Both the position numbers and the translations under genes were made by a program. Shown in pieces: positions 2,356-40,429 of a DNA stretch of 64,000 nt. The stretch covers positions 1,949,665 through 2,013,664 of the forward strand of contig NZ_CP058952.1 in the NCBI RefSeq assembly GCF_013423785.1, given 5' to 3'. A model generated the notes under the pieces. That model saw only the letters and a list, made by a program, of their open reading frames with translations. It did not search any database and had not been told where the DNA came from. Every line of letters starts with the position of its first letter. Within the stretch, counting starts at the first letter, position 1. This DNA comes from Chitinibacter fontanus (GTDB lineage: Bacteria > Pseudomonadota > Gammaproteobacteria > Burkholderiales > Chitinibacteraceae).

Positions 2356-2790
2356 CTGGGCGGCATTATTAACCTATTAAATTGCGCAATATTGACGCAT
2401 ATTTGTTGACAGTAATTATGCTGCAACGTGTAAAGATTAGCTTGAAAATCGTGCAAGGCGATGTATGCTATGACGCGAGCATAAGGTTGGTTCTTACCAT
2501 CGTTTGTATTGCCCGGCGCGCCAAGCTGGTGATTTTTATGCTGAGCATGTGGCCAATTTGTTGTTGCAAACAAAGAAAAATGCCACTAGCCAAGTAATAA
2601 AATTACAGGAATGGGTCAACTTTTTGCGCTGTATCAAGCAATTTGGCATCAGTAGAGTAAAAGCCAACGTAGGATTTGATTTGTATCAGTAGCGGCCTGC
2701 CAGCACTCCGTATACTGGCTTCATCGGGTGAAGGGAATAAAGCCTTTTACCTAGCAATCACTAAACACAACCCAAATAAGAGGTGTTACC
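2356..2790 (+). other. 435-bp non-coding region upstream of phosphoketolase
   Basis: No convincing gene is seen. Two short open frames (2382-2597, 2504-2692) lack ribosome sites and family resemblance. The region holds a candidate sigma-70 promoter (TTGACA at 2405-2410, 17 bases, TGTAAA at 2428-2433) that could give a long leader or a small RNA. Nearer the gene is the FNR-type promoter listed separately. The inverted repeat CTTCA-N5-TGAAG (2719-2733) lies over the predicted start point and could be an operator or a leader hairpin. Confidence 0.5.
2676..2716 (+). promoter_or_regulatory. candidate class II FNR/ANR-activated promoter of xfp
   Basis: TTGAT-TTGT-ATCAG (2676-2689) matches the FNR consensus TTGAT-N4-ATCAA at 9 of 10 positions. 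The -10 hexamer TATACT (2711-2716) starts 35 bases after the box starts, putting the box centre at about -40.5 to -41.5 from a start near 2723-2724, the class II position. No good -35 hexamer is present, as expected for an activator-dependent promoter. The ribose operon promoter has the same spacing. Confidence 0.65.
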
Positions 2791-5196
2791 GTGGCTCAAC
2801 CGTTATCTCCAAGCGTATTAGATAGAATGCACCGCTACTTCCAAGCGGCAAACTATTTGTCTGTTGGTCAAATTTACTTGCTCGACAACCCAATGCTGAA
2901 ACTGCCGCTGAAACGCGAGCACATCAAGCCACGTTTGTTGGGCCACTGGGGTACTACACCTGGTTTGAACTTCATCTTCGCTCACGCAAACCGCATCATC
3001 ACTGAGCGTGAAGTGAACATGATCTACATCACTGGCCCTGGCCATGGTGGTCCTGGTTTCGTTGCGAATACTTGGATTGAAGGTTCTTATGAAGAATTCT
3101 TCCCAAGCATCGACCGTACTGAAGCAGGTATGCAACGCCTGTTCAAACAATTCTCTTTCCCACGCGGCATCCCATCGCACGTAGCGCCTGAAACTCCAGG
3201 TTCTATGCACGAAGGTGGCGAGTTGGGTTACTCAGTATCACACGCTTACGGCGCGGCTTTGGACAATCCAGACCAAGTTGTTATCGCTGTAGTCGGTGAC
3301 GGTGAAGCTGAAACTGGCCCATTGGCTGCTTCTTGGCACTCAACTAAATACATCCACCCGATCAATGACGGTTTTGTATTGCCAATCTTGCACCTGAACG
3401 GCTACAAAATTGCCAACCCAACCTTGTTGGCACGGATGAACAAAGATGAAGTAACTGCCTTGTTCACTGGTTACGGCTACGAGCCAATCTTCGTTGAATT
3501 GACCAACGAAACATTCAATGACAAGCCAGAAACATTCGAAAAAATCCACCAAGACATGGCTGCGGCAATGGACTTGTGTATGGACAAATTCGCTGCAATC
3601 CGCGCTGCTGCGATTGCTGAAAAAGACGCTGGCAAACCAATCACTCGCCCACGTTGGCCAATGATTGTAATGCGCACGCCAAAAGGCTGGACTGGCCCGA
3701 AAGAAATCAAAGGCAAAAAAGTAGAAGACTACTGGCGCAGCCACCAAGTGCCATTCTCTGATATCGATGGCGAGAATGTGATCAACTTGGAAAACTGGAT
3801 GCGTTCATACAATGTAGACACATTGTTCAATGCTGATGGTTCTGTAAAAGAAGACATCGTGTCATTGGCACCAAAAGGCCAAAAACGTATCGGCTCTAAC
3901 CCAGTTGTACACGGCCAAGTGTCGAAAGACCTGAAAATGCCAGACTTCCGTAACTACGAAGTTAAATTTGCAAAACCAGGTACTGAAAACGCTGAAATGA
4001 CTCGCGTAATGGGTAATTTCCTTGCCGATGTCATGAAAGAAAACGAAGCAGAGAAAAACTTCCGTATCTTCGGCCCAGATGAAACTGCATCTAACCGTTG
4101 GAATGCTACGATTGAGTACTCTGGTAAAACTTGGTTGGCTAACCACTTCGAAGTGGATGGCGTGAACAAGAATGACAACCTGCAACAAGATGGCCGCGTA
4201 ATGGAAATCTTGTCTGAGCATACTTGCCAAGGTTGGCTCGAAGCGTACAACTTGACTGGTCGTCACGGTTTCTTTAGCTGCTACGAAGCGTTCATCCACG
4301 TGATCGATTCAATGTTTAACCAGCACGCTAAATGGCTGAAAACAACTCGTCACATCAACTGGCGCAAACCGATTCCATCGTTGAACTACTTGTTGACTTC
4401 ACACGTATGGCGTCAAGACCACAACGGCTTCTCTCACCAAGATCCAGGCTTTATCGATCACGTGGTGAACAAAAAAGCTGAAGTGATCCGTGTTTACTTG
4501 CCAGCTGATGCGAACACCTTGTTGTCTGTAACTGACCACGTATTGCGTTCACGTCACTATGTGAACGTGGTAGTAGCCGGTAAACAGCCAGCGCTGCAAT
4601 ACCTGACTATGGACCAAGCGATCAAACACGCAACTAAAGGTCTGGGTATCTGGGATTGGGCATCAAACGATCAAGACGGCGAGCCAGATGTAGTCATGGC
4701 GTGTGCGGGTGAAATCCCAACAATGGAAGCTTTGGCTGCAACTGATATGCTGCGTCAACACTTCCCAGATCTGAAAATCCGCTTCGTTAACGTTTGCGAT
4801 TTGATGACTCTGCAACCTGAAGAAGAGCACCCACACGGCTTGTCAGACCGCGAATTCGACGCGATCTTCACAACTGACAAACCTGTGATGTTTGCCTTCC
4901 ACGGCTACCCATGGTTGATCCACCGTCTGACTTACCGTCGTAACGGCCACGCTAACATCCATGCTCGTGGTTACATCGAAGAAGGTTCTACTTCGACTCC
5001 GTTCGACATGGTTGTGGTTAACCAGCTTGACCGCTTCAACTTGGCAATCGACGTGATCGATCGTGTACCTAAACTGCAAAAAATCGGTGCACATGTTCGT
5101 CAGAAACTGACTGACAAACTGGTTGAACACGCGCAGTACATCGCTAAATACGGCGATGACATGCCAGAAGTTAAAGATTGGAAATGGCCATACTAA
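2791..5196 (+). CDS. xfp: xylulose-5-phosphate/fructose-6-phosphate phosphoketolase
   Basis: A thiamine-diphosphate enzyme that cleaves xylulose 5-phosphate (and often fructose 6-phosphate) with phosphate to acetyl phosphate plus a triose or tetrose phosphate. The 801-residue length is normal. Diagnostic stretches are [40 protein letters not shown] and the ThDP/Mg motif GDGEAETG at 169-176. Start is GTG after AAGAGG (2778-2783). Codon choice differs from neighbours (heavy use of AAA, CGT, GGT, CCA, ACT), resembling rplY at 61.4 kb and implying high expression. No acetate kinase or phosphotransacetylase lies alongside. The promoter appears to be FNR-type. Preference for X5P or F6P cannot be told from sequence. 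Confidence 0.95.
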
Positions 5197-31233: not shown

Positions 31234-32346
31234 CTACTTTTCGGTATGGCTAGGCGCTGCTGTTTCTGTCGAGTGCTGTTTGCAGGCAGCCTTCATCACA
31301 TACATGCGCTCATCTGCTTGGCGGATTAAGGCCTCTGGGCTGCAAAATTCATTTGGCCCGGTGGAAGCGCAGCCAACACTGAGGGAGACACATTCCTCAC
31401 GTTGAATCATTTCTTCATACAGGCGGCGTGTCACGATCAACTCAGCTTGTTCCTGAGTGCAATTAGGAAGCACGATGCAGAACTCGTCGCCGCCATAGCG
31501 AAAGCTACTGTCTTCGGTGCGTAAAATCCGGCGGATAGTTGTTGCCACAAAACGTAATATTTCGTCGCCATGCTGATGCCCGTACTGGTCATTGATTAGT
31601 TTGAAATCATTGACATCAATGTAGGCCACCGCCAATGGTTCACCTCGGCGCTCTGCCTGCCGTAGTCCCTTGGTCAGCGTTTCGCTGAGTTGGCGCGTGT
31701 TAAGTAAACCAGTGAGTGGGTCGGTGCGGGACACATCTTCGAGTTGGTGAGTGCGTTCGCGTACTTTTTCTTCTAAGCCGCGCGCGTATTGTTCAGATTT
31801 CTCACGCGATGATTCAATTTCAGCCACCAAACTGCGGATATACGTTTCAAATACCAGCGCAATATCAAACATAAATAATTTTTCCAGCGCTTGCAGTGTG
31901 AGCAAACGTTCTGGGGTATCGCCGATATGATCGGTGATTAAAGTATTTAAGAGCTGTTTAAGCGTGTGAATACCGGCAAGATAGAGTTTAGGCTCAACCC
32001 CTATGCGTTTATGCACTAAACCAATACGTAGGCGATTGTTGACATATGCAAGGTCGTAAACACCGCTAAATAAATCCAAAATGTATTTGCGCTGTGCTGC
32101 GCGCAACCTAGCCAAAGTATCTGAGTCACCAATTAATAAGGCGATCTCGGGTACGCTGGTCTGCAACTCGTAAAATTGTGTGACCAATGGCTCTATGCGT
32201 GCTTCTGCTACGCTATGAAAGCGGATCAGTGCATCGGCATCACTGTGGCTAAAATTGAATAGCGTTTTCCGATATTCAATTTCAAAATCAGTAATCCGCA
32301 TTTGCTCCAGCAAGGTTTGATCGGTTTGTTTCACACGACCTCGCAT
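31234..32346 (-). CDS. globin-coupled diguanylate cyclase (oxygen sensor, DosC-like)
   Basis: 370 residues: a globin-coupled sensor domain (about 15-165) with proximal haem His112 in LVHKRIGVEPK, a coiled coil (175-205, EKVRERTHQLEDVSRTDPLTG) and a GGDEF domain. The active site GGDEF is at 285-289 and an intact product-inhibition I-site, RTED, at 276-279. It should make c-di-GMP in response to O2 binding at haem, as in E. coli DosC. The start is ATG 32346; a GTG at 32334 with GAGG before it is an alternative. The gene stands alone. Confidence 0.92.
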   Translation of the reverse strand: MRGRVKQTDQTLLEQMRITDFEIEYRKTLFNFSHSDADALIRFHSVAEARIEPLVTQFYELQTSVPEIALLIGDSDTLARLRAAQRKYILDLFSGVYDLAYVNNRLRIGLVHKRIGVEPKLYLAGIHTLKQLLNTLITDHIGDTPERLLTLQALEKLFMFDIALVFETYIRSLVAEIESSREKSEQYARGLEEKVRERTHQLEDVSRTDPLTGLLNTRQLSETLTKGLRQAERRGEPLAVAYIDVNDFKLINDQYGHQHGDEILRFVATTIRRILRTEDSSFRYGGDEFCIVLPNCTQEQAELIVTRRLYEEMIQREECVSLSVGCASTGPNEFCSPEALIRQADERMYVMKAACKQHSTETAAPSHTEK

Positions 32347-33560: not shown

Positions 33561-34322
33561 TTAACTGGCTGTCGCTGCGCTACTCACAAACCAGATTAGC
33601 CCTGCCGCATCCAGCTGAGCGCACAAATCGCGCATCGTCGCCTCGGCCGCATCACGCTCGCCGCTGGTACTAAATTCAATATGTGGCGTGGCATAGCGCG
33701 CATTGCCATAGCTCGGCAGGCTGCTAAATCCGGTGTTTGGATGCTGGTCCACCAGTGTTTGCATAATGCCGACCAGCTCTCCTTCCCGTGCATCGGGCAC
33801 GATAATGCTGCACACATGCGGTGCCTGCCCGTCGGTGAAGTGCGTCTCTAGCACCCATTCCAGCATCGGCCAAGCCATGCTGGGAAATCCGGGCAGCAGC
33901 GCGTGTTGGCGGAAAAAACACCCCGCCACTTGATTAACCGGATTAGGGATCAGGCTGCTGCCCGCTGGAAACTCGGCCATCTGAATTCGATAGGGAAAAG
34001 CTTGCTCGCCAAATCGGGCCTCAATCAAAGCAGCGGCCTCATCATGGCGATGTAAAGCGATGTCCGCTGCAGTGGCTAAGGCCAGCCGCGTATGGTCATC
34101 GGGCGTGGCGCCGATGCCACCAAATGAAATCACATTGGCATTGCTCGTCAACGTATCGCGAAATGCCGCAACCAAGGTTGCAGGATGATCGGGTAGGTAG
34201 CGCACCCCCGCCAGTTGATGCCCATGTCGCTGCAGGCTGGCTAGGGCGACGCCAAAGTGCTGGTCTTGGCGGCGCCCACTCAAAATTTCGTCGCCGATAA
34301 TCAATACCTGAAATTGTGCCAT
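33561..34322 (-). CDS. CinA-like molybdopterin-binding (MoCF) domain protein
   Basis: 253 residues beginning with the MoaB/MogA-like fold of the CinA N-terminal domain: FQVLIIGDEILSGRRQDQHF and the conserved GGIGATPDDHT near residue 85. The C-terminal pncC (nicotinamide-nucleotide amidase) half of full CinA is absent, as in the stand-alone MoCF proteins of many bacteria. Function uncertain, perhaps nucleotide hydrolysis. The frame opens at 34382; ATG 34322 aligns with the family. Transcribed divergently from the ribose operon. Confidence 0.8.
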   Translation of the reverse strand: MAQFQVLIIGDEILSGRRQDQHFGVALASLQRHGHQLAGVRYLPDHPATLVAAFRDTLTSNANVISFGGIGATPDDHTRLALATAADIALHRHDEAAALIEARFGEQAFPYRIQMAEFPAGSSLIPNPVNQVAGCFFRQHALLPGFPSMAWPMLEWVLETHFTDGQAPHVCSIIVPDAREGELVGIMQTLVDQHPNTGFSSLPSYGNARYATPHIEFSTSGERDAAEATMRDLCAQLDAAGLIWFVSSAATAS

Positions 34323-34460
34323 GTGCAATATCCGCTCAACGGTAGCCGCTAGAAAGGTACTTATTTTGTCACCACTACACATGCTGCGCCATCTGAAATC
34401 CTAGGCTGGCCGTGGGTTTAGCCCTATTTGAGGCTTAAGTAAGGGATTTTGGCACTAGGG

Positions 34461-34486
34461 ATGTAGTGTATATATTTTCGCTACAT
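34461..34486. promoter_or_regulatory. 26-bp imperfect palindrome upstream of the ribose operon
   Basis: ATGTAGTG - ten AT-rich bases - CGCTACAT, paired at 7 of 8 positions, five bases before the FNR-type box. Half-sites 18 bp apart centre to centre could take a dimeric regulator on nearly one DNA face. No regulator is identified for it. Confidence 0.35.
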
Positions 34487-34490
34487 GAAT

Positions 34491-34531
34491 TTGATATAAA
34501 TCAATTCGCTGTGCTGATTACGGTTTAGCAT
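34491..34531 (+). promoter_or_regulatory. candidate class II FNR/ANR promoter of the ribose operon
   Basis: TTGAT-ATAA-ATCAA (34491-34504) is a perfect match to the FNR consensus. The -10-like TAGCAT (34526-34531, 4 of 6) begins 35 bases after the box begins, so the box centre is at about -41 from a start near 34538. A -35 hexamer is missing. The geometry is the same as at xfp (2676/2711). Confidence 0.7.
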
Positions 34532-34544
34532 GTGCTCATCGTTA

Positions 34545-34560
34545 GCTAAAACGAGTTAGC
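34545..34560 (+). promoter_or_regulatory. Cra/FruR-like operator of the ribose operon
   Basis: GCTAAAACGAGTTAGC is a near-palindrome with a central CG, as usual for LacI-family sites, and close to the Cra consensus GCTGAAACGNTTCAGC. It lies at about +7 to +22 of the predicted transcript and 17 bases before the rbsK ATG, a repressing position. The FruR-like repressor at the operon end is the natural candidate to bind it. Confidence 0.6.
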
Positions 34561-34577
34561 AAGGTTATGGAGGCGAT

Positions 34578-35480
34578 ATGAATAAGGTATTGGTGGTTGG
34601 CAGTATTAATATGGATCTGGTCGCGCAGGTCGGGCATTACCCGCGCTTGGGGGAGACTTTGCTGGGGAGTGGATTTGCGACCTATCACGGTGGCAAAGGC
34701 GCCAATCAGGCAGTTGCCGCTGCGCGGCTCGGCGCACAAGTTACGATGATTGGCCGCGTGGGTGATGATGCCTTTGGGCGTGAGCTAACAGCCGGATTGC
34801 AAGCCGAAGGCATCAATACCGACTGGGTGAAAACCAGCCCCAATACCGCCAGTGGCATCGCGATGATTACGGTGTCGGACAGTGATAACGCCATTATCGT
34901 AGTGCCCGGTGCCAACGCACATTTAAGCCCCGCCGATATTGAGGCTGCCGAGGCGGCTTTTGAAAGTGCCGATGTGGTGATTGCCCAGCTGGAAACGCCG
35001 TTGGCGAGTATCGAAATGGCTGCGCTATTGGCCAATCGCTATGGCAAACCGTTTATTTTAAATCCTGCCCCAGCAATGCGTTTGCCTGTGAGTTTGCTCG
35101 ATAAAGTAGCGCTGCTAACACCGAATGAATTTGAATTGGGCATGGCGCTAGGCCGGCCTGAAAGTGAATGGCAGCAGGCCTTACAGCAATTGCCCGGCAA
35201 AGTGCTAATGACCGCAGGCGCTGACGGCGCATGGTTTACCGATGCCGCAGGTACTTTGCAGCAGCAAACGAGTTTTAAAGTGACTCCAGTCGATACCACC
35301 GGTGCAGGCGATACCTTTAATGGTGCCTTGGCCGCTTTTTGGGATTTGGGCCTATCCGCCGCCAGCCGCATGGCCTGTGCTGCCGGTGCTTTGTCGGTGA
35401 CCAAAGCCGGTGCGCAAAGCGGCATGCCTACCAAAGCGCAATTGCAGGCGTTTCTCAGTGAACAAGGAGAGGCAGAATGA
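34578..35480 (+). CDS. rbsK: ribokinase
   Basis: Phosphorylates ribose to ribose 5-phosphate in the cytosol. PfkB-family protein of 300 residues with the N-terminal VGSINMDLV, substrate loop GGKGANQAVAAARLG near residue 38-52 and the catalytic/anion-hole motif DTTGAGDTFNG near 241-251. GGAGG precedes the ATG. It is the first gene of the operon here, unlike E. coli (rbsDACBKR), and overlaps rbsD by four bases. Confidence 0.96.
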   Translation: MNKVLVVGSINMDLVAQVGHYPRLGETLLGSGFATYHGGKGANQAVAAARLGAQVTMIGRVGDDAFGRELTAGLQAEGINTDWVKTSPNTASGIAMITVSDSDNAIIVVPGANAHLSPADIEAAEAAFESADVVIAQLETPLASIEMAALLANRYGKPFILNPAPAMRLPVSLLDKVALLTPNEFELGMALGRPESEWQQALQQLPGKVLMTAGADGAWFTDAAGTLQQQTSFKVTPVDTTGAGDTFNGALAAFWDLGLSAASRMACAAGALSVTKAGAQSGMPTKAQLQAFLSEQGEAE

Positions 35481-35875
35481 AAAAGCTAGGTCATCTCAAC
35501 CGTGACATCAGCCGCGTATTGGCGGGCATGGGTCACACCGATTGCATTGTGATTGCCGACTGCGGCCTGCCAATTCCCGATCATGTGGAGTGTATCGACT
35601 TATCACTACAAATCGGTACGCCTTCGTATTTCGCGACGCTAAACAGCATCTTGGCCGATTTTCAGGTGGAACGTGCGGTACTGGCGAGCGAATGCCAAGC
35701 AAAAAATCCCGCCGTGGCCGAGCAGGCTGAGGGTTTGGCACAGCAGGGCGTGCAAATCGAGTATGTACCACACGAACAATTCAAGCAGCTCACCCACCAG
35801 GCCCGCGCGATTATCCGTACCGGAGAAGCCAGCCCTTACGCCAATATCGTGTTGTATTCCGGTGTGATCTTTTAG
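35477..35875 (+). CDS. rbsD: D-ribose pyranase
   Basis: Speeds the pyranose-furanose interconversion of ribose so that ribokinase receives the furanose form. 132 residues, close to the family length of about 139, with LNRDISRVLAGMGHTD bearing catalytic His20, IADCGLPIP and the C-terminal EASPYANIVLYSGVIF. Starts inside the rbsK stop (ATGA) and is followed nine bases later by rbsA with an AGGAG site. Confidence 0.95.
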   Translation: MKKLGHLNRDISRVLAGMGHTDCIVIADCGLPIPDHVECIDLSLQIGTPSYFATLNSILADFQVERAVLASECQAKNPAVAEQAEGLAQQGVQIEYVPHEQFKQLTHQARAIIRTGEASPYANIVLYSGVIF

Positions 35876-35884
35876 GAGCCGAGC

Positions 35885-37360
35885 ATGTTGATCCAAATGA
35901 AAGGCATCAGCAAAGCCTTTGGCCCCGTCCGGGTGCTCGAAGGCGTCGATTTTGCGTTGGAGCGCGGCGAGATTCATGCGCTGATGGGGGAGAACGGCGC
36001 AGGCAAATCAACCTTGATGAAGATCCTGTGCGGGGTGTATCAGGCGGATAGCGGCACCATCGCTGTTGATGGTAAAGATACCCCCATTAAAAATACCAGC
36101 GATGCTGAAAAACATGGCATCGCCATTATTCACCAAGAGCTAAACCTGATCCCGCAATTGTCGGTGATGGAAAACATGTTTTTAGGGCGCGAGCCACGCC
36201 ATTTTGGGGTGATCAACACCATCAAAATGCGCACGCAATGCTTGGAATACCTCAAGCTGCTCGGCATTGAAAACCTCGATCCCGATGTCGAAGCCGGCAC
36301 GCTATCGATTGGCCAGCAGCAAATGGTTGAGATCGCCAAGGCGCTGTCGCTCAATGCGCAAACGCTGATTATGGATGAGCCGACTGCGGCGCTGTCCGAG
36401 CGCGAAACTGAAAAACTGTTTGGCATTATTGCCGATCTGAAATCTCGTGGTGTCGGCATTGTGTATGTCTCGCACCGGATGGAGGAGATTTTCAAAGTCT
36501 GCGACAAAATTTCGGTACTGCGCGATGGCCAATTTGTCGGCGAGCGGGTGATTGCCCACACTGATTTTGACGAAATCGTCCGCATGATGGTCGGCCGCGA
36601 GATTGGCGATCGTTTTCCTGTACGGCAGGCCACGCTAGGCGAAGTGCGACTGAAAGTCAGCGACTTGGCCGATGCGACGATTAGCGGGATTAATTTTGAA
36701 GTACGTGCCGGTGAAGTGCTCGGTATCGCCGGGCTAATGGGCGCGGGTCGCAGTGAAATCCTGAAAACCATTTTTGGCATTAATCGCAAAGTGGCTGGCC
36801 GCGTAGAGCTTGATGGCCAAGCACTGAATGCGACGTCCCCTGCGGAAGCGATTGCTGCCGGAATTGGATTTGTGACTGAAGATCGTAAAAGCCAAGGGCT
36901 GGTGCTGGGCTTGTCGGTGCGCGAAAACGCCACCCTGGCCAATTTGGGCAAATACGCGCGTTTTGGTGTGATTAACCATGCCGAGCAAATGGCGGTGGTG
37001 CAGCGCGAAATCGACCGGATGCACATCCGCACTCGTGACGCCGAGCTGGAAGTGAAATCACTGTCGGGCGGTAATCAACAAAAAGTCGTGTTTGCCAAAT
37101 GGCTGGGTATTGCACCCAAAGTCCTTTTTCTCGATGAGCCTACCCGTGGCGTCGATGTCGGCGGTAAGGCTGAAATCTATCAAATCATTAATGAATTAGC
37201 GCAGTCAGGCGTGGCGATTGTGATGGTGTCATCCGAATTGCCGGAAGTCTTGGCCATGAGTGATCGCGTATTGGTGATGCATCAGGGAACACAGGCTGGG
37301 ATTTTCAGCCAGCCCGATGCTGAAACCGTAATGACTGCTGCAACTGGAGGTTTGAAATGA
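35885..37360 (+). CDS. rbsA: ribose ABC transporter ATP-binding protein
   Basis: Double ABC ATPase of 491 residues energising ribose import. The first cassette has Walker A GENGAGKST near residue 36, signature LSIGQQQMVEIAKAL and Walker B TLIMDEPTAAL; the second has a degenerate Walker A (GLMGAGRSEIL), signature LSGGNQQKV and Walker B VLFLDEPTRGVD. This paired pattern is typical of RbsA/MglA/XylG. Its stop overlaps the rbsC start by four bases. Confidence 0.96.
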   Translation: MLIQMKGISKAFGPVRVLEGVDFALERGEIHALMGENGAGKSTLMKILCGVYQADSGTIAVDGKDTPIKNTSDAEKHGIAIIHQELNLIPQLSVMENMFLGREPRHFGVINTIKMRTQCLEYLKLLGIENLDPDVEAGTLSIGQQQMVEIAKALSLNAQTLIMDEPTAALSERETEKLFGIIADLKSRGVGIVYVSHRMEEIFKVCDKISVLRDGQFVGERVIAHTDFDEIVRMMVGREIGDRFPVRQATLGEVRLKVSDLADATISGINFEVRAGEVLGIAGLMGAGRSEILKTIFGINRKVAGRVELDGQALNATSPAEAIAAGIGFVTEDRKSQGLVLGLSVRENATLANLGKYARFGVINHAEQMAVVQREIDRMHIRTRDAELEVKSLSGGNQQKVVFAKWLGIAPKVLFLDEPTRGVDVGGKAEIYQIINELAQSGVAIVMVSSELPEVLAMSDRVLVMHQGTQAGIFSQPDAETVMTAATGGLK

Positions 37361-38295
37361 ACGTACAACAGAAAGCAACGTTGCAAAAATTAGGGCCATT
37401 TATTGCCTTATTGGTACTGGCCGCTGGCTTGGCGATTACTAGCCCTGATTTTCTAACGGTAGGTAATTTATTGAATGTATTCCGCCAAGTTTCGATCAAT
37501 GCGCTGATTGCCTTTGGGATGACGCTGGTGATTTTGCTGGGCGGGATTGATTTGTCGGTAGGCTCGATTTTGGCGCTGTCTTCAGTGGTGACCGCCTTAA
37601 TGCTCAGCCATGGTGTCGATCCGGTGGTGGCGACCAGTGTGGGTATTCTGGCCGGTGCCGGGATGGGGATGGTCAATGGCCTGATTATTAGTAAAGGCAA
37701 AGTTGCGCCGTTTATTGCGACCTTGGGCACGATGACGATTTTGCGCGGTTTGTCGCTGGTGTTTTCCGAAGGCCGCCCAATTACGGGTCTGAATAGCGAC
37801 TTTTTCGCCATGCTTGGCGGTGGCTATGTGGCAGGCTTTATCCCCGTGCCAGTCATTCTGATGTTGGTGATGTTTGCCGTGTTCTGGTTTGTGCTCAAAC
37901 GCACCGTATTTGGTCGCCATGTGTATGCCGTCGGTGGCAATGAAGAAGCGGCGGCCTTGTCGGGCATTAAAACTGATCGCATCAAAATCTGGGTGTACAC
38001 GCTATCGGGCGCAATGGCCGCTACTGCCGGGATGATTCTGACTTCACGCCTCAATTCAGCTCAGCCGACGGCCGGGACTGGCTATGAGCTGGATGCAATT
38101 GCAGCGGTGGTGCTCGGCGGTACGAGCCTGACCGGTGGCCGTGGCTGGATTTTCGGTACCTTGGTTGGCGCCTTGCTGATCGGGATTTTGAACAATGGCT
38201 TAAATCTGTTGGGCGTGTCGTCGTTCTACCAGCAGGTGATTAAAGGCGTTGTGATTTTGCTGGCCGTATTACTTGATCGTGCCAACAAAAAGTAA
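37357..38295 (+). CDS. rbsC: ribose ABC transporter permease
   Basis: 312-residue inner-membrane permease, eight to ten spans, of the BPD_transp_2 family. The segments ISINALIAFGMTLVILLGGIDLSVGSIL and GTSLTGGRGWIFGTLVGALLIGILNNGLNLLGVSSFYQQV are hallmark RbsC regions, the second being near the ATPase contact. Translated by coupling to rbsA. A 99-base gap with a stem-loop separates it from rbsB. Confidence 0.96.
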   Translation: MNVQQKATLQKLGPFIALLVLAAGLAITSPDFLTVGNLLNVFRQVSINALIAFGMTLVILLGGIDLSVGSILALSSVVTALMLSHGVDPVVATSVGILAGAGMGMVNGLIISKGKVAPFIATLGTMTILRGLSLVFSEGRPITGLNSDFFAMLGGGYVAGFIPVPVILMLVMFAVFWFVLKRTVFGRHVYAVGGNEEAAALSGIKTDRIKIWVYTLSGAMAATAGMILTSRLNSAQPTAGTGYELDAIAAVVLGGTSLTGGRGWIFGTLVGALLIGILNNGLNLLGVSSFYQQVIKGVVILLAVLLDRANKK

Positions 38296-38363: not shown

Positions 38364-38394
38364 CTCTTGTTGATATGCCTGATTGGAGTCAGAT

Positions 38395-39324
38395 ATGAAA
38401 CGCGTACTTTCACCACTATTGATTGGTCTGTTGGCTACAGGGCTGATCGCATGTTCAAAGCAAGGCCCAGACACGCAAGTTGCGGTTGAGCCGACCGCTG
38501 TTGCTGGTCAGCTCAGTGTGGGCTTGGCTATTTCAACCCAAAATAACCCGTTCTTTGTCGCTTTGCGTGATGGCGCAGATGCCGAGGCCAAAGCGCAGGG
38601 CGTGAAGTTGATCACCGTTGATGCGCAGGATGATTCAGCCAAACAAATCTCGAACATCGAAGATTTGATCCAGAAAAAAGTGCAGGTGATTTTGATCAAC
38701 CCTGCTGATTCGGATGCGGTAGCTGGTGTAGTAAAAGAAGCCGTTAAAGCTGGGATTAAAGTGGTATCGCTCGATCGTAGCGTGAATGGCGCTGAAGTGA
38801 GTGCCCACATTGCTTCGGATAACGTAGCGGGTGGCAAAATGGCTGCTGAGTTCTTAATGGAAAAAATCGGCGGCAAAGGCAATATCGTTGAGCTGGAAGG
38901 CATCCCGGGCTCATCGGCCGCGCGTGAACGTGGCCAAGGCTTCCACGCTATCGTTGATGGCAAAGCAGACCTCAAACTAGTCGCCAAACAAGCGGCTGAT
39001 TTTGACCGTGCTAAAGGCTTGTCGGTAATGGAAAATATCCTGCAAGGCAATAAAGACGTTAAAGGCGTATTTGCACATAACGACGAAATGGCCTTGGGCG
39101 CATTTAAAGCGATCGAAGCGGCTGGCCTGAAAAATGTCGTGGTGGTGGGTTTTGATGCCACACCAGATGCGGTAAAAGCGGTTAAAGCTGGTCAACTGGC
39201 GGCAACGGTGCAACAAAAACCTGAGCTAATCGGTAAAATGGGCGTAGATACCGCGATCAAATTAGGCAAAGGTGAGGCCGTCGATAAATTTATCCCCGTG
39301 CCTTTGGATCTGGTAAAACAATAA
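38395..39324 (+). CDS. rbsB: ribose-binding protein, predicted lipoprotein
   Basis: 309-residue type I periplasmic binding protein (RbsB/Peripla_BP_4). The core is standard: VGLAISTQNNPFFVALRDGAD, LINPADSDAVAGVV, VVSLDRSVNGAEVSAHIASDN, ELEGIPGSSAARERGQGF, FAHNDEMALGAF. Unlike E. coli RbsB, its signal peptide ends in a lipobox (TGLIAC, Cys20-22 region), so it should be lipid-anchored rather than free in the periplasm. ATG 38395 is used; the frame opens at 38383. A strong terminator follows. Confidence 0.95.
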   Translation: MKRVLSPLLIGLLATGLIACSKQGPDTQVAVEPTAVAGQLSVGLAISTQNNPFFVALRDGADAEAKAQGVKLITVDAQDDSAKQISNIEDLIQKKVQVILINPADSDAVAGVVKEAVKAGIKVVSLDRSVNGAEVSAHIASDNVAGGKMAAEFLMEKIGGKGNIVELEGIPGSSAARERGQGFHAIVDGKADLKLVAKQAADFDRAKGLSVMENILQGNKDVKGVFAHNDEMALGAFKAIEAAGLKNVVVVGFDATPDAVKAVKAGQLAATVQQKPELIGKMGVDTAIKLGKGEAVDKFIPVPLDLVKQ

Positions 39325-39349: not shown

Positions 39350-39386
39350 GCCGGTGCCACGAGATTGTTGGCACCGGCTTTTTTAT
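39350..39386 (+). terminator. terminator between rbsB and rbsR
   Basis: Perfect 10-bp stem GCCGGTGCCA/TGGCACCGGC with a nine-base loop and TTTTTTATTT. The rbsR ribosome site begins within a few bases of its end. Confidence 0.85.
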
Positions 39387-39397
39387 TTGGAGCAGGC

Positions 39398-40429
39398 ATG
39401 AGTGCCTATCAACGCTTAACGATTGCCGATATTGCCGAATTGGCAGGGGTATCAAAAACCACTGCCAGCATGATTTTGAATGGCCGCGCCGAGCAATATA
39501 GGATTGCCGCGGCAACGGTCGCTCGTGTGCAGCAGGTGGCGGCTGAGCATCATTTTCAGCCCTCAGCTTCGGCGCGGTTATTACGCTCGCGGCGCAGCGG
39601 TACGCTGGGCTTGGTGATTCCTGAGCTAACTAACTTTGCCCATGCGATGTTGGCACAAATGCTGGAGCCAATTTGTCGTGAAGCGGGTTTTCAGTTGTTT
39701 GTGGTCAGCAGCAATGACGATGCCGAAATGGAAGTCAAAGCCGTTGAGCAACTACTGGCGCGGCAAGTTGATGGCCTGATGCTGGTTCCCTGTACCAATA
39801 ATGCCAAGCTCTACGCCAAATGGGCCAAGCGGATGCCGCTGGTGCTGGTTGATCGGCGGGTGATTGGCAGTCAGCTCCCGTTTGTGGTGACCGATGCCGA
39901 AACGCCTGTATGTGAGTTAATCAGCCGTACCTTGGCGCAAGGTGTGCGAGAGATCGCCTATTTTGGTGGTTTGCGTGATTTATCGCCCAGTGTGGATCGT
40001 TTGGCTGGTTTTCAACAAGCTTGGCAAGCACAAGGCTTGGAGGCTAATCCGGCCCTGATCAAGCATCGCGATTACCATCAGCACAGTGGTTTTGCGATGA
40101 TGAATGAGTGTTATGAACAGCTCGGGCGCTATCCCGAGGCGCTGTTTGTCGCGTCGATTTCATTGCTGGAGGGCGCATTGGAATTTATGAATAAGCACGA
40201 TCGCTTTAAAACCGCGCCGCGTTATTTGATGAGTTTTGACGATCATAGCCTGCTCGATTGTATGCCACGCCCGATCAATACTGTGGTGCAAGACAGCGCA
40301 CAACTGGCGCGTCACAGCTTGGATCGAATTGTGGCGCTGCTCGCTGGCCAGAGTGTGCAATCGGTGTGGGTGCCCGCTCGGCTACATTGGCGGCAAGATC
40401 TTGCGTCATCGGCGGGTGAATCTGCGTAA
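39398..40429 (+). CDS. rbsR: LacI/FruR-type repressor of the ribose operon
   Basis: 343 residues. An N-terminal LacI HTH (LTIADIAELAGVSKTTASMILNGR, residues 6-30) with a FruR/Cra-style hinge (QYRIAAATVARVQQVAAEHHFQPSASARLLR) is followed by a periplasmic-binding-like effector domain (GTLGLVIPELTNFAHAML ... SFDDHSLLDCMPRPINTVVQD). It is named from position at the end of the rbs genes; the HTH type matches the Cra-like operator at 34545. The start ATG 39398 follows GGAGCAGG; the frame opens at 39365. Confidence 0.88.
   Translation: MSAYQRLTIADIAELAGVSKTTASMILNGRAEQYRIAAATVARVQQVAAEHHFQPSASARLLRSRRSGTLGLVIPELTNFAHAMLAQMLEPICREAGFQLFVVSSNDDAEMEVKAVEQLLARQVDGLMLVPCTNNAKLYAKWAKRMPLVLVDRRVIGSQLPFVVTDAETPVCELISRTLAQGVREIAYFGGLRDLSPSVDRLAGFQQAWQAQGLEANPALIKHRDYHQHSGFAMMNECYEQLGRYPEALFVASISLLEGALEFMNKHDRFKTAPRYLMSFDDHSLLDCMPRPINTVVQDSAQLARHSLDRIVALLAGQSVQSVWVPARLHWRQDLASSAGESA

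Follow-up and report, generated by a model that had tools for sequence, protein, structure and literature searches.

The ribose operon of Chitinibacter fontanus is likely to be transcribed from an FNR-dependent promoter of class II, on which a local LacI-family repressor would also act. The operon lies in a 64,000-nucleotide stretch of contig NZ_CP058952.1 (hereafter, the window) and has the gene order rbsKDACB, with the gene of the LacI-family repressor, here called RbsR, at its end (Table 1). When oxygen is absent, FNR would bind TTGATATAAATCAA around −41.5 and recruit RNA polymerase to TAGCAT, a −10 element without a −35. The repressor encoded in the operon would bind TGCTGATTACGGTTTAGCA over the spacer and the −10 and block transcription until ribose is present. 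Because FNR activation would be combined with repression relieved by ribose, output would need low oxygen and ribose together.

Table 1. Features of the ribose promoter and operon and of the xfp locus in the window.
Feature	Position	Strand	Remarks
xfp FNR box TTGATTTGTATCAG	2676..2689	+	one mismatch; TATACT at 2711-2716
xfp, phosphoketolase	2791..5196	+	PF09364/PF03894/PF09363
Element A, inverted repeat ATGTAGT-N12-RCTACAT	34461..34486	.	conserved at rbs across ten genera
FNR box TTGATATAAATCAA	34491..34504	+	perfect match to TTGATNNNNATCAA; centre about −40.5/−41.5 from predicted start
Extended −10 TGATATAAA within FNR box	34492..34500	+	candidate older or overlapping promoter
Operator-like palindrome TGCTGATTACGGTTTAGCA	34512..34530	.	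putative site of the operon's LacI-family repressor
−10 element TAGCAT of candidate FNR-dependent promoter	34526..34531	+	doubles as the operator's right arm
Second LacI-type palindrome GCTAAAACGAGTTAGC	34545..34560	.	related palindromes in several close relatives
rbsK, ribokinase	34578..35480	+	TIGR02152 above cut-off
rbsD, D-ribose pyranase	35477..35875	+	NF008761 above cut-off
rbsA, sugar ABC transporter ATPase	35885..37360	+	
rbsC, permease	37357..38295	+	
rbsB, ribose-binding protein	38383..39324	+	NF007936 above cut-off
LacI-family repressor, here called RbsR	39365..40429	+	best models fructose/sucrose repressor and Cra, under cut-offs

The genome encodes one classical FNR (P0004), with Cys19, Cys22, Cys28 and Cys110 and the recognition helix ETVSR; the four other CRP-family proteins of the genome are without this helix. 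An FNR orthologue was found in 43 of 43 family genomes. At the ribose promoter, the perfect FNR consensus and the TAGCAT at an offset of 35 bases from its first base, both reported in the first-pass annotation, were found exactly as described. Perfect TTGATNNNNATCAA sites number eight in the 3.63-Mb, one-contig genome, and the rbs box is the only one in the window. TANNNT was present at offset 34–36 (on either strand) at 4/8 perfect boxes; by chance, 5.3% of sites should have one (binomial p ~5e-4). The four boxes with a TANNNT so spaced are those at ccoN, on the hemN side of hemN-fnr, at rbs, and at one place within a coding region. By contrast, a genome scan with a loose class II pattern (TTGAN6TCAA, 20–22 bases, TANNNT) yielded 10 matches versus 8 for a reversed-pattern control, i.e., no enrichment.

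We compared the region upstream of rbsK across the family, in which Chitinibacter and Deefgea are the closest named relatives at the rbs locus. An FNR or FNR-like box was found 35–36 bases 5' of TAGCAT in 25/25 genomes of five Chitinibacteraceae genera, which is the spacing of a class II FNR site relative to a predicted start. In genera g1, g4 and g7, the box and TAGCAT were present at offset 35 or 36 in 14/14 rbsK-carrying genomes, and in g9 and g10 a weaker box (TTGATNNNNRTCTA) was present at offset 35 in 11/11 genomes examined. The exact TTGATATAAATCAA followed by GCTGATTACGGTTTAGC was detected in 13 of the 43 family genomes; a fourteenth (G005) has the box with one operator base changed. 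An FNR matrix was trained on the ccoN, xfp and fnr/hemN boxes, with the rbs boxes left out of training. The rbs box outscored Markov-shuffled upstream DNA in each of the 25 genomes of g1, g4, g7, g9 and g10 (p 0.0025–0.027), and TANNNT was always located 35 or 36 bases 3' of the box so scored (25/25). In genera outside these five, no upstream region had a box that was both significant by the matrix and followed by a −10 at the class II spacing. TAGCAT was found wherever an FNR or FNR-like box was present (25/25 genomes) and never without one (0/11), counts that are not independent because the linked changes sit on one or two tree branches.

This conservation across genomes is decisive for the reality of the arrangement, and we conclude from the aligned sequences that the pairing of the rbs box with TAGCAT is not due to chance. 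It is very improbable that the box is accidental or a relict and that the operon uses another promoter, e.g., TTGGCA-16-TATATT at 34449-34476, or the older −10 described below alone. A generic promoter scan did choose TTGGCA-16-TATATT, and weak FNR-like matches are common, with 262 places at ≤1 mismatch. However, the alignment of relatives shows no conservation of the TTGGCA −35, and in g1, g4 and g7 the half-sites of the box are invariant, while the bases separating it from neighbouring elements vary. The FNR control of the ribose operon proposed in the first-pass annotation is therefore well supported by the cross-genome comparison, as a prediction from promoter sequence. In two g4 genomes (L149 and L150, i.e., G010 and G011), RbsK is 61–63% and the repressor 56% identical to those of the window, with Xfp at 92%; this may reflect a replacement of the g4 rbs genes under a promoter whose FNR box was retained.

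In nine genomes without an FNR box (g2, g3, g5, g6 and g11), the aligned box position contains TGnTATAA(A/C), with TTCCC or close variants 17–18 bases 5' of it, and reads as a plain extended −10 promoter. In the no-box genome G002, for example, CTGATATAACTCAC stands at the position occupied here by TTGATATAAATCAA. In these five genera, the operator begins ~10 bases past the −10 and ends in TAGCAA, TAGCTA or TAGCTT, never in TAGCAT. All genomes of the FNR genera have TAGCAT, and their TTCCC −35 has been lost. TGATATAAA is retained within the FNR box in g1, g4 and g7, where the older promoter has perhaps been kept inside the new site. The spacer of the rbs box, ATAA, whose four bases could in principle vary, is identical in 14/14 genomes of these three genera, against nine different spacers among their ccoN boxes, and the mean spacer difference per site is 0 for rbs, 0.70 for ccoN and 0.17 for xfp. 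In g9 and g10, TATAAA has been lost, yet the box and TAGCAT hold the 35-base spacing, so that the FNR arrangement stands alone there. Together with the frozen spacer, this pattern speaks for class II activation in every genus with the box, plus an older −10 kept in the genus of the window.

What the retained −10 might do was considered in two ways. It is conceivable, although we lean against it, that the two promoters form an oxygen switch, in which TGATATAAA would drive a start at ~34507 in air, anaerobic FNR would cover it and activate the TAGCAT promoter, and the ribose control of the repressor would act on both. The occurrence of TGnTATAA at the same place in the nine no-box genomes and the frozen ATAA are consistent with such a switch, but a preferred DNA shape could also freeze the spacer, and TATAAA is missing in g9 and g10. 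The loss of the −35 of the older promoter in g1 and g7 makes its strength doubtful; extended −10 promoters can function without a −35. It is unlikely that FNR represses only, by covering the −10 of the ribose promoter, with TAGCAT conserved solely as the operator's right arm. The box does overlap TGATATAAA, and the TAGC arm is found with or without a box, but the last T of TAGCAT occurs solely in box genomes, and g9 and g10, which have no TATAAA to repress, keep the exact class II spacing. Class II activation by FNR thus remains the preferred reading. A conceivable course of events, as a whole less likely than not, is that a few base changes overwrote the older −10 with an FNR site, that the right operator arm gained its last T and became the new −10, and that, in the genus of the window, both promoters share those 14 bases, FNR switching the polymerase from one to the other with oxygen.

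TGCTGATTACGGTTTAGCA occurs once in the genome, even when three mismatches are allowed, and is conserved across the family. Since a LacI-family gene is part of the operon, its protein is the most likely ligand, and TGCTGATTACGGTTTAGCA is probably its operator. Orthologues of the repressor were found in 40/43 family genomes; in g9 the gene is not adjacent to rbsK, and in two Neisseriaceae rbs loci both the TGCTGATTACGGTTTAGCA-type operator and the repressor gene are absent. That its TAGCAT doubles as the right arm of TGCTGATTACGGTTTAGCA had been overlooked in the first-pass annotation, as had the ordinary promoter of the other genera and the presence of TGATATAAA, with its frozen spacer, inside the box. 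Upstream of the FNR box, arms of element A, (T/C)GTAG..(C/T)TACA at 14–15 bases apart, were identified in 33/36 rbsK-carrying family genomes. Perfect or near copies of element A elsewhere in the genome numbered 12 places versus 18 for the control; it was thus rejected as a regulon motif and seems private to rbs. An RNA element was also rejected, with no Rfam match in 34300-34700. Between the two arms of the repeat, C/A mismatches were seen in place of compensating changes, which makes a DNA site more likely than an RNA element. A Crp site, either for element A or for the box, was rejected on half-site and spacing, which misfit TGTGA-N6-TCACA.

We examined the direction of the change by phylogenetic analysis. 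In the first tree, the distribution of the box was cleanly explained by FNR control having been gained once. When RbsD and RbsA were added to the tree rows, with the outgroup included, the root moved and the change looked like a loss. A tree was then built with other outgroups from CcoN, FNR and Xfp, the markers on which a transfer of rbs genes should have the least effect. In this tree, the no-box genomes as one clade were rejected (p-AU 0.003), whereas the box genomes as one clade were not (p 0.50). A single gain agrees with this tree, and two changes fit equally; the trees disagree on the root. On the basis of these clade tests, replacement of an ordinary promoter by FNR control is the favoured direction. 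The region looks like a natural rewiring of a sugar operon to oxygen, since related genera have a seemingly oxygen-blind promoter at the same spot. At a single alignable position, present-day promoters can be followed here from the ordinary form to the FNR-dependent one, a series that is rarely available, and a change of regulator at promoters is testable here by a handful of point changes.

The first-pass annotation had further linked rbs to xfp. The xfp box and its TATACT do have the same offset, 35, as at rbs. However, the boxes at ccoN (COX1-family oxidase subunit) and on the hemN side of the hemN-fnr intergenic region, which contains the perfect box TTGATCTAGATCAA, have an offset of 36. 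An offset of 35–36 is usual for class II FNR sites and not a special rbs-xfp signature, and equal offsets at rbs and xfp consequently add nothing to the case for a shared regulon. The pentose regulon also fared poorly in the comparison of genomes, in that the boxes were not gained or kept together. An xfp box is present in g2, g5, g6, g11 and one g3 genome, all without an rbs box, which indicates that the two FNR controls do not travel together. A route from ribose to phosphoketolase without oxygen is biochemically sensible, and an xfp-rbs pentose regulon is plausible. If the gain reading is true, rbs would have joined an oxygen regulon that already contained xfp.

The E. coli rbs operon is controlled by Crp and RbsR, and we agree with the earlier statement that FNR control of rbs is not the textbook case. 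The operon described here resembles that of E. coli in its enzymes, its transporter and the LacI-family repressor gene at its end, but it has an FNR box in place of the Crp site and the order K-D-A-C-B-R. Its repressor is nearer to the fructose/sucrose (329.7 bits) and Cra (242.5) models than to E. coli RbsR (108.7). In the papers searched, most subscription papers being out of reach, we found no account of a ribose operon activated by FNR. The probable FNR promoter represents a known type at an operon where it was not expected, and its overlap with an older promoter is unusual. The prediction that follows is that ribose uptake is tied to oxygen in Chitinibacter-like bacteria, unlike in the Crp-based textbook case.

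Among 23 FNR-activated E. coli promoters, 19 have the FNR site at −41.5 (PMC3688515). The rbs promoter resembles this class in its box near −41.5, its poor or absent −35, its −10 ~35 bases from the start of the box, and a regulator that is a classical [4Fe-4S]-type FNR (PMC3688515). It differs in that the rbs box contains an extended −10 motif and in that activation is predicted. A close parallel is the PN promoter of the Azoarcus bzd operon, which has AcpR/FNR at −41.5 together with BzdR operators (PMC6678401). Like the rbs promoter as predicted, PN serves betaproteobacterial catabolism, with an FNR-type activator at −41.5 and with the −10 and start lying under the main operator of a local repressor. 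PN serves benzoate degradation instead of sugar uptake and has another repressor with TGCA-type operators, and no older −10 inside the activator site appears in the part of the text consulted (PMC6678401). In alphaproteobacteria, a phosphoketolase gene is listed as a putative target of FixK/FNR-type regulators, and in those two papers we saw nothing that connects it with a ribose operon (PMC3050613, PMC2908626).

Several further observations were made in the course of the analysis. A perfect FNR box at 1501-1514 of L004 (genome 1688977) lies ~140 bases 5' of a PTS EIICB sugar transporter gene, with no −10 at class II distance. Another, at 1501-1514 of L006 (genome 2744505), lies ~190 bases 5' of the gene for a secreted-looking protein with CBM 5/12 modules of the chitin-binding type. 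The Neisseria gonorrhoeae record NZ_CP119140.1, which is classed as a plasmid and has a length of 2.17 Mb, contains ccoN and fnr and looks like a mislabelled chromosome. In the window itself, ~2.2 kb upstream of the ribose promoter (31234-32346), there is a gene for a protoglobin-GGDEF protein, which is likely an oxygen-sensing diguanylate cyclase.
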